A stretch of DNA of 11,679 nt from Funneliformis mosseae (Eukaryota; Glomeromycota; Glomeromycetes; Glomerales; Glomeraceae): positions 1 to 11,679 of the forward strand of contig CAJVPP010003421.1 of the NCBI GenBank assembly GCA_910592005.1, read 5' to 3'. The translations under genes were made by a program, and so were the position numbers. Within the stretch, counting starts at the first letter, position 1. Each line of letters opens with the position of its first letter. Shown piece after piece: positions 3,299 through 11,679 of this stretch. The notes beneath the pieces were generated by a model. It saw only the letters and a list, made by a program, of their open reading frames with translations. It was not told the origin of the DNA and made no database searches.

Positions 3299-3905
3299 GG
3301 AATACTTTAGAAATAATAAAACTATCATTCCTTAGATACAATAATATCATCATCCCTAAGGAATAATAAATGTATCATTTCTTAGGAATGATAATACCAT
3401 CATCTTTAAGAAATGATAAAACTATTATCATATTTAAGGAATGATAATACCATCATTCCTTAGGTATGATAAAATAATTGTTCCTTAGATACAATAATAC
3501 AATTATTCTTAAGGAATAATAAAACAATCATTTCTTAAGTATAATAATACAATCATTCCTAAAGAACGATAAATGCATCATTCCTTAGGAATGATAATAC
3601 TATTATCTCTAAAGAATAATAAAACTATCATATCTTAGGTATGATAAAATTGTCATACCTAAGGAATGATAATACTATCATTCTTTAAGTACAAAAAAAT
3701 AATTGTTTCTTAGAAACAATAAAATCATCATTCCTTAGGTATGATAATGTTATCGTCCTTAAGGAATAATAAATGCATCATTTCTTAGGAATAATAAAAC
3801 CATCATTTCTTAGGTATGATAAAATCATTATATCTAAGATATGATAAATGCATTATTCCTTAGAAACGATAAAACTATCGTATCTAAGGAATAATAATAT
3901 CATTC
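3299..3905. repeat. Hairpin satellite array, right part (~24 units of ~25 bp)
   Basis: Continuation of the array that begins at about 100. I count about 24 units with period 24-26 bp. Arms vary but often vary together: GGTATGA pairs with TCATACC near 3634-3660, and CGATA pairs with TATCG near 3866-3881. Loops fall into a few recurring types (AATACC, AAAACT, AAATGC, AAAATA). It ends where GATGTCAATCAG-type repeats begin. I know of no protein-coding or RNA-gene assignment for it. Confidence 0.9.
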
Positions 3906-5490: not shown

Positions 5491-6370
5491 AATTGTATAT
5501 ATTATAATATAATAAAATAAAATGACTTACAATCTATATAGTCTCAATTAAAAAAATTTTTTAATTTTAAATAAGATGAATTAATTTAAATAAATATAGC
5601 TTGAATTGATAAATAAAAAAAATAAAATACCCATTTAATTCATTTAATATATAGTTTAAGAAACTTCCAACATGATATATTTATTTATTTTAAATATTTT
5701 AATAATATCGTCTTACTTTCAAATATAAATAGGCGTTAAATTTCAATAATATAATCAACTTCTGGATTTAGTTCGTTTGAGCAAATATACCTTTAAATAT
5801 GAATTTGCCTGCATATATATTTTTAAGTAAACACGAATAATATTTTACAAGCTACAAATTTTAAAATATATTATCAATTCTAAATTTTGAATAATATAGA
5901 GTTATTTCAAGTATCATAAGAAAAATAATAATTCAAATTATTTTTATAGTAAAAAATTTTATTTATAACATTAAGTTAATATTAAATATCTAAAAATTTT
6001 ATTAATTTGCATTTAATGTTAAATGATAAAAATTAAAAGTTAAAGGTTTTACTTTGCTTAAGTTTTCTAAAAAAAATGAAGTGTAGCAAAATGATTAGTT
6101 GTAAAAAAATGTTTAAAAAATAATTTTTGAAAGATTTGAAAATTTAATGTAAACCATTATTATACTAAAAGTAAATTATTTTTTTCAATTCATATTTATA
6201 TATTTGCGTTATTGCTCTGATATTCAAGTTACATATTTATAATAAAAAAAAATGTCATCTGTTAATACGTATCTAAGCTAATAATAATATTATTGATTAT
6301 TTTTATAAAAAGCTAGCATATAAATCTTTTACATTTGATTCATCATTCTTCAGATGGATTGTAATATATC
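5491..6370. other. AT-rich spacer between the Tc1/mariner and Fanzor relics
   Basis: Nearly 900 bp of AT-rich sequence. I looked for the missing catalytic half of the Tc1/mariner transposase and for coding on the minus strand and saw neither. If the neighbouring relics belong to one element, this would be its internal non-coding part and the place to look for a guide (omega) RNA, but no conserved structure stands out apart from the palindrome at 6371. Confidence 0.45.
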
Positions 6371-6402
6371 AATAATAGGTAATACTAAGTATTACTATTA
6401 TT
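6371..6402. repeat. 32-nt palindrome at the 3' end of the Fanzor relic
   Basis: Arms AATAATAGGTAATACT (6371-6386) and AGTATTACTATTATT (6388-6402) are complementary over 15 bp with a single bulged G and a one-base centre. The minus-strand stop codon of the Fanzor pseudogene (6385-6387) lies at its centre. Possible roles are a transcript-end hairpin, part of a guide-RNA scaffold or an element-end structure. Chance is not excluded in such AT-rich DNA. Confidence 0.6.
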
Positions 6403-7989
6403 TCCTGTATGATTTCTGAAGAAAATTAAGGCTCTATCAAGCAAAGCTCAGCAAAAAATTTCCTGAATACCATTTTAATCTTGATCCATTACAGCTTCAC
6501 AACTTTGGCATTTGTACATCTCAGATCCTCCTATTTTTTGAATACTTCCATACTAGCTGCAAGTTTTTAAAGTATAGGCCTCATTTTGAATAATAATATA
6601 GATCCCTAATTCTTTAGCTTTAGCTACCAGACGTTAGCAAAATTGATAATAAGCCTAAAAGAGTATTTTATGAACAGTTTTTTATATTATATTTCATATT
6701 TTTCGATTTATCATATTTAATATCTCAAAAGGAGAAATGATAATGGCATCAAATTTGCAAGTAAAAAATATAATACTCTTTTTATAGATGAATTTTACTT
6801 TGCAGATGTTTGATTTTTCATATCATCTGAGAAATTGCATTATCAAGTTGCAAGGCCTTTTTATTTTTATGTTTTAAATTAGAGGAAGTCAGCTTGTCTC
6901 TTATAGAATGAAGATTATCCATATATTTGCATAAACGAATAATTCGTCTAATGTCATATTGGCTAATTTTACCTATACCTTTAGTAAGAGAGTATCATGT
7001 AAAGGGTATATGAATATCAGAATCAATAGAGACTGCATAAATAGAACCATCTACTTAGATTTTGTAAAGCTATTTTTGCATCTCATAAACTCATATAAAT
7101 TTCTATTCATTAGTTTCACGAATATATGTGATTTTATAATCAGATATTATCTTATAAGAAACAGGCCACTTATTATGTTTTTTTATTCAAAATAAAGAGG
7201 CTACAAATTACGTTTATTATGATCCAGAGTGACAATAGACTTATGACAATGTGTGAAAAGCGATGATGAATTATGAAGATAGGTGACATAAAAATAGTTC
7301 TAAATAGATTTTAAAAAATTTTGTGACTGAGATTGAAATGATAAAGATGGACTTTGTTGATTCATGTTTGATTCTAATTATGATTAATTATTTTATCTAT
7401 AAATTAATTAAAAAATCAAAAAAAATTAAAAAATAAATATTTTAAACAAAAAAAAATCAAAAAATAATAATTATACCTAGCAGTCAATATTTCATCAATT
7501 GCCTCATTAATAATATTTGCAGATACTTTTCTATATATATCTTAAAGTAGCATTTCAATACGTGCATAATAGTTCATACAAATTTACATTCATCTCATAT
7601 ACATGATTTTTGAAGTTTTTTGTCCTTATGTTCATTAACGTCTTTTTCTACATGAACATCTGCATAAAGTTTAAGTTATCTTTAATGGGTTAAGATTTTA
7701 CCCAAATTCGTTGTGATAGACCAATATGTGAATTCTTGATATATAAACAGCAGTATCAATTTCAGTAAACAACTGCATTATAAGCATATCTCATCAAACT
7801 CATCTAACATTTCAGTAGCTGCCTTTGAGGGTAATTTGGATACACTTTGATTAGCAGTGTATGATTGAGAATAGTTTTCAAGTGTTGTCGCTTATTATGC
7901 ATTAATATTATCTTAATCTTTATTTTACGCTTTTTCCTAATCTGGCATTCTCATCAGTAAATAGCGTTTCTTCTTTCTTACATTCAACA
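6385..7989 (-). pseudogene. Fanzor/TnpB-like RNA-guided nuclease, near full length, broken
   Basis: Ancestral role by family: transposon-encoded RuvC nuclease guided by an omega RNA. Blocks in order on the minus strand: a basic N-terminus (IRKKRKIKIK); LIKVYPNYPQRQLLKC (7854-7807) and MRYAYNAVV (7794-7768), matching the family's YP..Q...L and R..YN pattern; SANIINEAIDEILTA (7523-7479); RIKHESTKSIFI (7375-7340); DYKITYIRETNE; then VSIDSDI with the RuvC-I Asp at 7024-7022. Next come KGIGKISQYDIRRIIRL, CKYMDNLHS, FDAIIISPFE (6753-6724) and QNEAYTLKTC with the Glu at 6582-6580. The zinc ribbon is C-S-x-Y...CQSC (last pair 6510-6499; second Cys is Tyr), followed by MDQD with the RuvC-III Asp. The stop is TAG 6387-6385. 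Many stops and some frameshifts; from 6753 to the end the frame is continuous with only stops. About 520 codons fit the usual size. The 5' boundary is uncertain (7900-7989). Confidence 0.85.
7397..7476 (-). other. Candidate 80-nt intron in the Fanzor relic
   Basis: On the minus strand GTATAA (7476-7471) follows directly after the ...EILTA block and its next codon, and TTATAG (7402-7397) precedes the RIKHEST block. The sequence between is T-rich on the coding strand with stops and no family motif. The family normally has additional residues at this place, so a degraded coding linker is an equally possible reading. Confidence 0.35.
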
Positions 7990-8193
7990 GATAAAAACTG
8001 TATTGATTACAAGAATATCTTGAGAAAGTTTGTGTTCATCAGAGGTCACATTGTTGAAGAGAATCACGAGTTTTGTAATATAGAAGAAGAGTATGTACTG
8101 GATAGTATTCCAAAAGGGTTGAATCAGATCGGATTTAAGGATATACTCAGACTCAACCCATTTATAAAAACCAACCCATATAAATACCTAGAT
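7906..8193 (+). other. Unassigned 96-codon open frame without ATG
   Basis: This + frame stays open from after TAA 7903-7905 to TAA 8194-8196, with peptides such as LRKFVFIRGHIVEENHEFC and EEEYVLDSIPKGLNQIGF. In DNA this AT-rich about eight stops would be expected. It lacks an ATG and I recognise no family. Its first ~85 bases are antisense to the Fanzor N-terminus, so part may be a shadow, but 7990-8193 is not covered by anything else. It could be a fragment of a decayed element or host gene. Confidence 0.25.
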
Positions 8194-8260
8194 TAATATT
8201 TATAAAACCTGACTCTGACCTGACCCATTATAGTTTAACCCCTCAGATAACCTGAGTCAA
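8114..8260. repeat. Degenerate AACCC/GACCC-type repeat
   Basis: Contains loosely repeated pieces ACTCAACCCA, ACCAACCCAT, CTGACTCTGACC, TGACCCATTA and TTAACCCCTCAG. On the minus strand these read as GGGTT and GGGTC-rich sequence alternating with ATAAA-rich linkers. It looks like a decayed low-complexity family; there is no perfect array and no telomeric repeat. Confidence 0.4.
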
Positions 8261-8367
8261 ATAAAATTTTTAATAAATTTATTTATGATCAGCAAGCCAA
8301 TATTATATTAAAGCCATAATCCGTGACTGTGCTAAAATAAAGTTATATGATCTAAATGATCAACATA

Positions 8368-8640: not shown

Positions 8641-9253
8641 GAAATTGTTAAATTTATTTACTATTGCCTTTTGTTGTGTCTTCATATAGGCTGATTGTGA
8701 TATTGTCTTGTATTTAATTTGATATATTGAATTAAAAGTTTATCGTTTAAGTTTACAGAATCCAAGCCAACAAAAGTGATGATTCCTACCAGGAATTTTA
8801 GCTTTTTAGTGAATGAATTTTGATCTCTATCTCACACTACAACAAAATCATATTTAATAATACTTTGAAAACAGAAGTTACTTATCAACTGATTACACTT
8901 GTATAATTTGCTATCCACCTTCAGAAGAAGTATCTTTACCATTCAAACATTTTTGGAATTAGATTAGCGCTGAATTTAGTGCTCTTATATATACTGGAAA
9001 AATAGTAACTTTGTTTGATCAGTATCGACAACATTTTAGCGAATTACAGCTCATTAAAACTCTAAAAAGAGAAGCCAAATTATTGTTATATAGTTTAACA
9101 TTTGTTAACCCTTTTGATTTTGGATTTGATTTTAACTTCATTGCTATTTGAATATTAGAAGAATCTTATTATTCAGTAAACTTTGAACGTCCTATAGCAA
9201 CTGAATTACAACCTTTAGTACCCCTTTCATTGGAACCCTCAAGAAAAAACATA

Positions 9254-10140
9254 ATGAATGCAGACCAATTTAATGCCTTTATTACTCAGCTCACAGATTC
9301 TATTAATCAACTTACTCAGGAAATCCAAAACAGACCTTTACATCAACCACTGAAAAGAGAAACTAATTTAGTTCTAGTAAAACAATTTTCAGAAAAAAGT
9401 AAAGAGGATCCATCTGATTGGATTGCCCATTTTGAGAAAGCTGCGAAGGCTAATAACTGGAATAATGAACGAATAGTTGAAATTGCTAGAGGATTTCTCA
9501 ATCATGTAGCCGCTGAATGGTATGAGGATACTACATTTGCTTAAAGTTGAAAGTTGCAGATAATGAAGATGGTGCTGAAACCTTTGTGTTTAAATTTGTA
9601 AACCATTAATTTACAACTGAACAACAAAACAAATGGCATTATGAACTCAATGATATTCTTTAAGGAAGGGATGAAAAAGTAGAATCGTATTCTAACCGAT
9701 TTAAGAGATTAAGAAAAAAGGTAGACCCTGATAGTAATCTACCTGACTCATATGTCATTAGATTATTTTTAAAAGGATTGAAAAAAGATTTAGTACGATA
9801 TGTTGCTGCTAGTAAACCTGCAGATATTAATGAAGTAATTCAAGAGGCTATCGACTATGAAGTTGGAGTTTATTTTGAAAGACAAGAACGTCAAGTAGAT
9901 CAAAAAGCTAGAGCTCCTAGTGATAATGCTTTTGAAGCCTTAACTAAACAAATGGAAAAGTTAACTCTTAATTATTCTAATATAGTTTCAGCCTTAAATG
10001 TTTAAACCTAAACGAGACCTAAAGTTATAGGACAAAAACAAGATAAATCTCAAATCACTTGTTTTAATTGTCAAAAGAAAGGTCACTACTCTAGGGAATG
10101 TAATTTGCCCCCTAAAAAGAGAAGATGCAAATATAATTGA
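9254..10140 (+). pseudogene. gag: Retrotransposon Gag with CCHC zinc knuckle, broken
   Basis: Ancestral role: structural protein of the retrotransposon particle, binding its RNA. The preferred start is ATG 9254 (MNADQFNAFITQLTDSINQL). A retrotrans_gag domain follows: DPSDWIAHFEKAAKANNW, then IARGFLNHVAAEWYED. A stop at 9542-9544 coincides with a one-base frameshift. The reading continues in the next frame as NKWHYELNDIL, then VESYSNRFKRLRKKV and LFLKGLKKDLVRYV, the usual end of this domain, with extra stops at 9607 and 9661. QMEKLTLNYSNIVSALNV ends at a stop at 10003-10005. The zinc knuckle CFNCQKKGHYSREC (10060-10101) is intact in C-x2-C-x4-H-x4-C form. The frame ends at TGA 10138-10140. Upstream, 8863-9253 is also open in the gag frame except for two stops and reads like protein, so an N-terminal extension or leader ORF may once have existed. 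Confidence 0.88.
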
Positions 10141-11679
10141 AGTTTATTTTGACCTTGATTCAGAAAATAAAGAAGAAAACTATGAAGAAGTTTATGCTAC
10201 TCTAAGAGTAAGGGTCACTCCGTATATTACCAACAGGAGGAATACTAAAGAAAGAAGTAAAAGGATGTCTAAATCTTAATAAGAAATGAGATTGAGAAAT
10301 AGAAATATAAGTAAACCAATTCCTCTTACTATGCCAATGAATATTGAAGAAGGAACTTCAACTTCAAAGGTTAAGAAACCTCAAAGAAAAATACCACGCA
10401 CCTCCTCTGCTGTTGACCAATTAGCTTCTTATAATGTCACTGAAGATATTTTAAACTTACCTTCATCTGCGAAACTTGAACAATGGTTAAAATATTCAGA
10501 CCAAAGGAGAAACTTAGCTAATGCTTTAAAAAGAGCTATCATTAAAGAAACCAATAATGTTGACCTTGATGACGAATATATGAGTGACAATGATGATACT
10601 CCTACAACTGCAGTCAGATGTACTATTCAAATTCACTATAGCAATGTGCAAGCTATTCTTGACTCTGATACAGCTATCAGTATTATTATGAGTAGTCTAG
10701 TCAAACGACTTAAATTAAAGATTGATAAACCATCAAAAATAATCTTCAATACTGCTAACGGAAAAAGAATTAGAGCTTTAGAAATGATCAATACCATCAA
10801 AATGACTATTGGATCCATTTGTATGCCGATAACTTTACAAGTCATTGAGTCTTCTGATGAAAACTTGCTATTAGGAACTGATTAGTTTAAGAGAACTAAA
10901 GCCATTCTTGACTTTGACGAAAAAAAAGTGAAGTTCAGATATTTTACAAAATCTGCCTCTGTTTCAATTACTTTTATGACAGTTCTTCTGTTGAATTAGA
11001 TGAAAAATCTGATACATCTATGGATGAACTGATCGATGTAATTGAAGATCTAACTTATAACGATTAATATGAGGATGAAGACCTTGATGAACGAGATATC
11101 TTTTATTTTAATAGTGAAGAAGATTTATCTGATGAAGAAAGTTTATTTGATTTTGACGAAAATAAGCTATTTGCTAATCCTTGGGATAACAATCCAGCAG
11201 TATTCTTAACTCAAGCTGAACAACCAAAACCTCAAAATAATGAATGGCGTATCCAAGAAGACTTACATGTTAGACCCTTAGATATTAATCAACAAGAAAT
11301 TTTTGAGCAATTCATTGAAGAAAATAAAGATATCTGTGCACTTAGTCAAACAAAAATTGGTCATACAACTTTATTTCAACATCAAATTTCAACAGGAGAC
11401 CATGAACTGATCGCTGGCCCTGCATATCATCTAAAGAATCCATCTAAATTAAAATTTCTTCAAGAAAAAATTAAACGAATGGAAGAAAATAATATTATTC
11501 AAAAGTCAAAAAGCCCTTAGGCTTTTCCAGTTATTATTGTATCTAAGAAAACTGGAGATGCACGTATTTGTATTGCTATAACTAAAGGAGATGCTTATCC
11601 CTTTCCACTTATTGATGACTTGCTTGAGAAATTTAGAAATGCAAGTTGGTTTTCTACACTTGATCTTGCTAGTGGATAT
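10124..11679 (+). pseudogene. pol: Retrotransposon Pol: aspartic protease and start of reverse transcriptase, broken
   Basis: Reading resumes one frame over from gag at 10124 (DANIIEVYFDLDSENKEE). It passes two stops at 10277-10282 and ATG 10286 and reaches a retropepsin-like protease: VQAILDSDTAISIIMSSL, TANGKRIRALE and LLLGTD. The active-site triad, normally D-S/T-G, is D-S-D (10661-10669). TAG 10883-10885 stands where the family usually has Trp after GND/GTD. After another frameshift near 10930-10965 comes a very acidic linker (EDEDLDERDIF, SEEDLSDEESLFDFDE). Then RT begins: NEWRIQEDLHVRPL; HQISTGDHELIAGPAYHLKN; KIKRMEENNIIQKSKSP; stop 11518-11520; AFPVIIVSKKTGDARICI; AYPFPLIDDLLEKF; ASWFSTLDLASGY. 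The family's DYRxLN motif is missing at 11574/11575, consistent with a short in-frame deletion. The catalytic YxDD block lies beyond the window. Confidence 0.9.

Follow-up and report, generated by a model that had tools for sequence, protein, structure and literature searches.

The element and its parts

The minus strand of the window, the whole stretch of 11,679 nucleotides of Funneliformis mosseae DNA that was analysed, carries at positions 6353 to 8103 the remains of an IS607-type mobile element. The remnant contains the tail of a serine recombinase gene (tnpA) and a broken gene of the TnpB/Fanzor family of nucleases (tnpB). The features are as follows.

6353-8103, minus strand: IS607-type element remnant, 5'-truncated, delimited by own-genome DNA matches and the boundaries of paralogues
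7963-8103, minus strand: pseudogene tail of TnpA, the IS607 serine recombinase, whose remainder is absent from the window
6385-8103, minus strand: tnpB/Fanzor2 pseudogene, frameshifted, with YPN at 7842 and the stop codon at 6387-6385
7399-7476, minus strand: insertion of 78 nt, by homology a putative spliceosomal intron, which keeps the donor GT and reads AT in place of the acceptor AG
7022-7024, minus strand: RuvC-I Asp (SID), where the DPG of relatives has become DSD
6580-6582, minus strand: alternative RuvC-II Glu (NEAYTLKTC), kept, the motif being defined as in the accessible text of PMC10711439
6499-6561, minus strand: zinc ribbon seen in translation, three of four Cys kept and the second reading Tyr, inside the PF07282 match
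6478-6486, minus strand: RuvC-III Asp motif DQD (DRD in relatives)
6351-6417, minus strand: right end, possible stem-loop, from the TGATGTATTACAATCCATCCG-like end found across subfamilies and from folding z-scores
8103-8306, strand not assigned: unrelated dispersed repeat of about 205 bp that cuts the element at 8103

The original prediction, made from the letters alone, had placed a relic of a TnpB/Fanzor nuclease on the minus strand at 6385-7989, and the profile search that it proposed bears this out. The PF07282 model matches 6463-6651 with 50.6 bits (E=1.7e-11, the whole 82-Mb genome being searched), and the match contains three in-frame stops. With X placed at the stops, the piece reaches 36.3 bits against a cut-off of 26.3, and the frames of the window reach 7e-12 with the NCBIfam TnpB model, a score below that model's cut-off. 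The motif blocks that had been predicted were all recovered in the predicted order by frame-by-frame translation of 8050-6300, spread across three frames: YPN..Q begins at 7842 and is followed by MRYAYN, and the FDAIII..PFE block lies at 6753-6724, besides the catalytic motifs listed above. The many stops that had been reported are also there, numbering 40, 59 and 43 in the three frames over 8103-6353. Upstream of YPN, the tnpB frame overlaps the TnpA tail as its +1 frame. When two frames of the window copy are joined, with X for each stop, the best solved chain is L79, a TnpB-like protein (PDB 9b0l), at 2.6e-13, followed by chains at 2e-4 that are named as IS605 OrfB-type proteins. The PDB listing gives L79 by name only, and we take it to be the Fanzor2 of a mimivirus.

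The predicted span was good for the nuclease gene, but the element is larger, reaching from 6353 to 8103 and including the TnpA tail; likewise, the call of a dead Fanzor-family gene holds, while the Fanzor2 type and the IS607 carrier are additions of the present analysis. Over 47 aa, the TnpA tail shares 55% identity with the undamaged TnpA of the paralogue on contig C67 (L029); the E-value of 2.2e-16 applies to a comparison of two short sequences only. That intact protein scores 6.8e-47 with NF033518, the NCBIfam model of the IS607 transposase, which is over the cut-off, and bears both PF00376 (the N-terminal MerR-type helix-turn-helix) and PF00239, where the window keeps the tail alone. Of the seven PF00239 matches genome-wide, two have PF07282 close by on the same contig (C2771 and C711), and paralogues continue into the serine recombinase on the side where the window copy stops at 8103. 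The element is identified as IS607 because of the TnpA tail in the window, the paralogue that fits the IS607 model and the occurrence of PF00239 near PF07282.

The edges come from other copies. A search of the genome with 6300-8300 gave 47 DNA matches, the query itself included, part of which belong to the repeat at 8103-8306; this repeat has 16 matches elsewhere in the genome (query 1-202), with 87% identity over 205 bp at L053. The right end is clear and the left end approximate only. Eleven matches stop at query 1947-1954, which is about 6354-6347 of the window, and the right-end sequence TGATGTATTACAATCCATCCG is common to different subfamilies. The folding z-scores of the right end are -1.3 in the window, -3.2 in L012, -3.6 in L016, -1.2 in L013, -2.0 in L010, -0.3 in L054 and +0.7 in L022. 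It is possible that the right end is the 3' scaffold of a guide RNA, a transposase site, or both. A scan of the whole window with Rfam at gathering thresholds, together with a tRNA scan, gave no match.

The window copy differs from the majority of five paralogues by 203 substitutions over 1726 sites, of which 155 are C>T or G>A, and the C>T-type changes are commoner in CpA, CpC and CpG than in CpT. Counted copy by copy, such changes number 155-168 in the window copy, L016 and L017, where opposite changes number 19-35, a strong bias; L024 stands midway, with 89 to 46, and L037 (27 to 80) and L041 (47 to 65) show none. This bias suggests decay through methylation or a RIP-like process in a glomeromycete.

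Other repeats share the window. A decayed piggyBac-type transposase occupies 650-2830, with PF13843 at 1389-1676 (E=1.9e-8) and at 947-1123 (E=3.7e-4); arrays with units of about 25 bp flank it, at about 100-440 and 3300-3900. A decayed Ty3-type retroelement spans 9152-11679 and apparently runs off the end of the window; its capsid (PF19259) lies at 9664-10002 (2.2e-8) and its gag-type aspartic protease (PF13975) at 10283-10882 (5.3e-7).

Paralogues, putative intron and class of the nuclease

The genome holds at least 48 matches to PF07282, many of them with stops; some copies give two matches, and such counts are lower bounds. Live relatives had been expected in the same genome. Better kept copies do exist, one of them with an intact TnpA ORF, but the stretches of this genome that were translated contain no complete intact TnpB. 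The best-kept copy is that of C67 (L029), with a TnpA ORF of 250 residues and a tnpB frame of 342 residues that is still open where the contig ends. Long open TnpB relatives are present in the databases (P0002, P0017), and the nearest named relatives, among the best 120 of 460, are proteins of Diversispora, Gigaspora, Cetraspora, Rhizophagus and Geosiphon. The contig of L016 has a gene whose protein matches one of Funneliformis caledonium, itself an arbuscular mycorrhizal fungus, with 99% identity and 94% query coverage.

Six copies of one subfamily, the window included, share an insertion that is absent from L013 and L014, the other two of the eight copies compared. Its length is 49-83 nt. 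GT stands at the donor in five of six, L024 having AT, and AG at the acceptor in five of six, the window copy having AT. Once it is excised, the frame reads LTARDKIINHN-like and resembles that of the intronless copies. We regard the insertion as a putative intron, specific to one lineage among the eight copies compared. A divergent Fanzor subfamily, which we call C (L018, L020, L021, L026, L027), also has introns. As far as its broken copies can be read, it seems to retain an N-terminal extension peptide, described below, that an intron interrupts within the part overlapping TnpA; the TnpA Ser motif is replaced in this subfamily and reads RGIF in L026. The predicted 304-aa protein P0030 of Rhizophagus irregularis joins the TnpA helix-turn-helix to the N-terminal part of TnpB, and is either a splice variant or an artefact of the gene model. 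Within tnpA itself, the first 180 nt, encoding the helix-turn-helix, differ by 2-7% per codon position among L029, L030, L041 and L044, and the recombinase part by up to 39% at third positions. The conserved 5' part suggests an exchange of modules or a constraint at the DNA level at the left end.

The class of the nuclease points to Fanzor2 in an IS607 element, because of the IS607 TnpA, the DPG and alternative Glu of the relatives, and L79 as the nearest solved chain, which is also nearest for the paralogue L037 (3.5e-20). In the accessible text of PMC10711439, DPG together with NEAYTSKTC-like motifs is the fingerprint of Fanzors and pro-Fanzors. The RuvC-I DPG is present in all 14 aligned relatives, having become DSD in the window copy; the Glu ahead of the zinc ribbon reads NEAYTLKTC in the window and E..YTSKTC-like in 13 of the 14, the last (P0012) ending before that position. 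The assignment rests on motifs, carrier and L79, for the tree had no named Fanzor2 rows. This tree has 64 rows. Its fungal-type rows number 17, of which 16 form one group (100/99) apart from the 42 bacterial or viral-contig rows, and the seventeenth, P0031, stands outside beside P0037; the fungal-type label was assigned by us, and several rows are metagenome proteins. The carrier is of the IS607 type expected of Fanzor2, by the TnpA tail in the window and the score of L029 over the IS607-model cut-off, and the genome is eukaryotic, by the host gene on the L016 contig and the putative intron.

We weigh two other origins for the copy. The piggyBac-type remains at about 650-2830 in the same window would suit a Fanzor1 relic, that is, a gene riding on a eukaryotic DNA transposon such as piggyBac, Mariner or MuDR. 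The copy is instead bounded by the edge that other copies set at 6353 and by an IS607 TnpA tail on its 5' side, which is not the non-IS607 eukaryotic carrier of a Fanzor1, and the piggyBac remains lie about 3.5 kb away on the opposite strand. The element edges rule them out as the carrier. Additionally, no chain named Fanzor appears among the PDB matches of the window or of L037 up to E=1, and a Fanzor1 relic is very improbable. We give as little credit to a bacterial IS607 element from an endobacterium or a contaminating contig. The gene order is indeed the same in bacterial relatives, but many diverged copies sit in one AT-rich assembly, eukaryotic-type transposon and retroelement remains share the window, the putative intron is found within one lineage, the nearest named relatives are fungal, and the L016 contig carries the gene that is nearly identical to that of F. 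caledonium. We thus read 6353-8103 as a 5'-truncated and heavily C>T-mutated copy of an IS607-family element with tnpA and a Fanzor2-type tnpB, resident in an arbuscular mycorrhizal fungus, and we put the probability of this reading, including the steps of mobility, guide RNA and +1 overlap proposed for the living element, at about 0.93.

The +1 frame within tnpA

The window lacks most of tnpA, and the overlap of the two genes is not visible whole in its copy; the frames were followed in relatives. Through an alignment of TnpB, 113 related loci were gathered, namely the best 80 of 283 prokaryotic loci and 33 from viral contigs. They were found with the DPG pattern, so its presence in them is largely by construction. 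A tnpA lies upstream on the same strand in 105 of the 113. The tnpB frame is +1 to tnpA in 101 of these and in the other frame in four (L102, L113, L114, L168), with a median overlap of the open frames of 532 nt across the 105. As to their hosts, 23 of the 80 prokaryotic loci carry non-cyanobacterial names (Thiotrichaceae, Chloroflexi, Synergistales, Parachlamydia and others); many of these, within L056-L135, are metagenome bins, and the selection was by DPG pattern only.

Leaving aside 8 loci without tnpA, 22 without the Ser motif and 16 with a short or broken tnpA, 67 loci remain, of which 47 are non-redundant. Over the tnpA catalytic domain of these 47 (360 nt, 345 in one), the +1 frame contains 7 stops against 135.4 expected and the +2 frame 379 against 380.6, the expectation coming from synonymous codon permutation that keeps the protein and the codon counts. 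The +1 frame is free of stops in 43 of 47, and all four exceptions are viral-contig loci. In 42 of 47, tnpB is reached by a single +1 ORF of 400 codons or more that is already open ahead of the Ser motif; an ATG precedes this motif in 40 of the 42, and in ten of them the first is at -98.

Controls came from the hosts and from other IS607 elements. Nineteen genomes of these hosts were examined, with tnpA recovered at all but 6 of 30 loci; the 18 tnpA genes without a recognised alternative-Glu TnpB have 153 stops in +1 against 156.0 expected, and the six with one have 0 against 14.6. Three of the 18 are stop-free in +1; two of them, L185 and L197, are of the DPG type, and the third is L179. Among canonical-Glu IS607 elements, L171, L173 and L190 give 31 stops against 30.4, and seven further elements, those with an IS607 tnpA among 60 loci, give 70 against 67.4. 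Together the ten give 101 against 97.8 with none stop-free, in a set that was not made non-redundant and in which L229/L237 and some others are close copies. The deficit of stops in the alternative-Glu clade and its absence from the canonical controls associate the open +1 frame with the pro-Fanzor/Fanzor2 clade and not with IS607 at large. The canonical-Glu pair L229 and L237, from one genome, has only one stop in the +2 frame of tnpA and one tnpB ORF of 622 aa, which may be a separate case of long overlap, using the other frame.

Selection on the +1 peptide was gauged by its amino-acid differences relative to simulation. In 18 independent pairs there are 756 differences in +1 against 928 simulated and 850 in +2 against 909; in 8 control pairs the numbers are 509 against 552 and 534 against 568. 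The shortfall is thus 18.5% (+1) and 6.5% (+2) for pro-Fanzor pairs and 8% and 6% for controls; the codon-position model is simple and biased by 6-8%, which leaves an extra +1 deficit of about 11%. As evidence of constraint at the protein level we consider this moderate, and the stop deficit strong.

The fungal copies show the same arrangement in part. In L029, L030 and L041, a +1-frame ATG (M[SP]ITPP...) follows the tnpA ATG at a distance of 157 nt, and the interval is free of ATGs in all frames. At position -3 the tnpA ATG has T and the +1-frame ATG has A, which makes for a stronger start context. From this ATG the frame crosses the recombinase domain toward tnpB, giving the 342 residues of L029, and is broken in the decayed copies L030 (176) and L041 (145). 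The start codons are this tidy in three of the eight fungal copies checked. L009 contradicts the arrangement, as the same ATG reads into the TnpA frame, and so does L031, with an offset of 146 nt, one ATG between and a 22-codon frame; L011, L014 and L037, also among the eight, have no recognisable ATG of that kind. Synonymous permutation of the L029 domain leaves +1 open in 3.4% of trials, and the fungal copies used in the pair test have no +1 stops apart from one in L041, where 3-5 are expected. Simulations constrained by TnpA alone exceed the observed +1 peptide differences in all four fungal pairs, which are not independent of one another: 58 against 75.1 (sd 3.4) for L029/L030, 46 against 60.1 for L029/L009, 56 against 66.4 for L029/L041 and 34 against 44.1 for L030/L041. 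With a higher transition rate, L029/L041 has P=0.02 and L030/L041 P=0.01.

The peptide that this frame encodes is recognisable in database proteins. Its N-terminal PYWN...S..LWLPT...SWF occurs in P0013-P0016 and P0018, and by alignment it is alike in fungal-type proteins and in bacterial-type proteins such as P0041, P0055 and P0082; P0035 (371 aa) is without it. Searched for by regular expression, the motif turns up in no more than 5 of the 47 frames from bacteria or viruses with a strict pattern, and in 5 of 14 fungal loci with a looser one; the alignment is the better evidence. In subfamily B, the extension ends in a basic stretch, KKRKK...RKNKRRKK, which could be a nuclear localization signal. 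These frames lead us to propose that Fanzor2 and pro-Fanzor have a dual-coded N-terminal extension, one that the annotated proteins often lack.

The open frame might also be passive, following simply from the TnpA protein and its codon usage, with the true start of tnpB lying close to where tnpA ends. Some single loci are fairly likely to be open under codon permutation (P up to 0.235), the amino-acid test is biased, with controls themselves 8% below simulation in +1, and SD-like sites precede 19 of 81 candidate ATGs against 3 of 30 other-frame ATGs in the same stretch, which is not significant (P=0.18). The permutation, however, already keeps the protein and codon counts and still expects 135.4 stops where 7 are seen, with +2 at expectation; the ten canonical-Glu elements are at expectation; bacterial-type and fungal-type proteins have similar +1 peptides; and SD-like sites are commoner at candidate ATGs than at later +1 ATGs (11 of 335; P=4e-8). 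We hold a passive frame to be improbable, with somewhat more to be said for it than for the two other origins weighed above. On balance, and with real reservation, we lean to a functional extension. The nuclease of the IS607-borne pro-Fanzor/Fanzor2 clade would carry an overlooked N-terminal segment of about 120-190 residues. The transposase gene would encode it in its +1 frame, with selection acting on the two frames alike. Gene-finding programs would often trim it, leaving it missing from many catalogued proteins and perhaps from constructs that have been tested. It would have entered eukaryotes with the element, where one subfamily has the NLS-like basic end and leaky scanning would apply, and it may couple the dose of nuclease to that of transposase, or touch TnpA or the guide RNA.

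The living element and known systems

By analogy with known families, TnpA would have moved the living element, and Fanzor2, with a guide RNA from the right end, would have cut DNA matching the flanks and so helped to retain it. Going by the relatives, tnpB would start inside tnpA in the +1 frame, and Fanzor2 would have carried an N-terminal extension co-encoded with the recombinase. Both proteins could come from one transcript. In the fungus, ribosomes might skip the tnpA ATG by leaky scanning and begin Fanzor2 at the following ATG, 157 nt further on; in bacteria, Fanzor2 might be begun by internal initiation. Fanzors are eukaryotic RNA-guided nucleases, and the present loci bear on how a bacterial IS607 gene became one. 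They add arbuscular mycorrhizal fungi as a Fanzor host, with the 48 or more PF07282 matches in one genome falling into several subfamilies and the putative intron in one lineage. Should the extension exist as protein, the enzyme in nature is not the one annotated, and loss of the extension would mark the departure of Fanzor from IS607.

The pro-Fanzors, to which these elements are also to be compared, are the subject of Yoon et al. 2023 (PMC10711439). In the accessible text of Bao and Jurka 2013 (PMC3627910), Fanzor2/IS607-type elements of eukaryotes and giant viruses likewise combine TnpB with an IS607 serine recombinase; its Table 1 lists no glomeromycete, and the present copy differs in being dead and in having relatives with a long frame overlap. 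The Fanzors of Saito et al. 2023 (PMC10432273) are likewise RNA-guided eukaryotic relatives of TnpB; the accessible main text has no Glomeromycota, Rhizophagus, introns or IS607, and its 'overlap' concerns the guide RNA. A review (PMC12451028) mentions Fanzor and Rhizophagus separately in its accessible text. Our search, outside which most subscription papers lie, found no literature on Fanzor in Glomeromycota or IS607 in Rhizophagus, and in titles and the beginnings of abstracts no report of a dual-coded TnpB extension. The word 'overlap' is absent from the main texts of PMC10711439 and PMC3627910, and 'intron' from that of the former.

The pro-Fanzor IS607 TnpBs, as given in the accessible text of PMC10711439, have the same DPG, the alternative Glu ahead of the zinc ribbon and an adjoining IS607 TnpA. 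They are described there as mostly, and in the Discussion as exclusively, cyanobacterial, whereas the 23 of 80 loci noted above bear other names. IS607 elements with a canonical TnpB have the same order of a tnpA serine recombinase and then tnpB; their two ORFs often overlap according to the accessible text of an eLife 2018 paper (PMC6188088), and overlapping and separate types are reported in that of a Genes 2023 paper (PMC9956272). Unlike the pro-Fanzor/Fanzor2 clade, the ten canonical-Glu IS607 elements tested here have stops in the +1 frame of tnpA at the chance rate.
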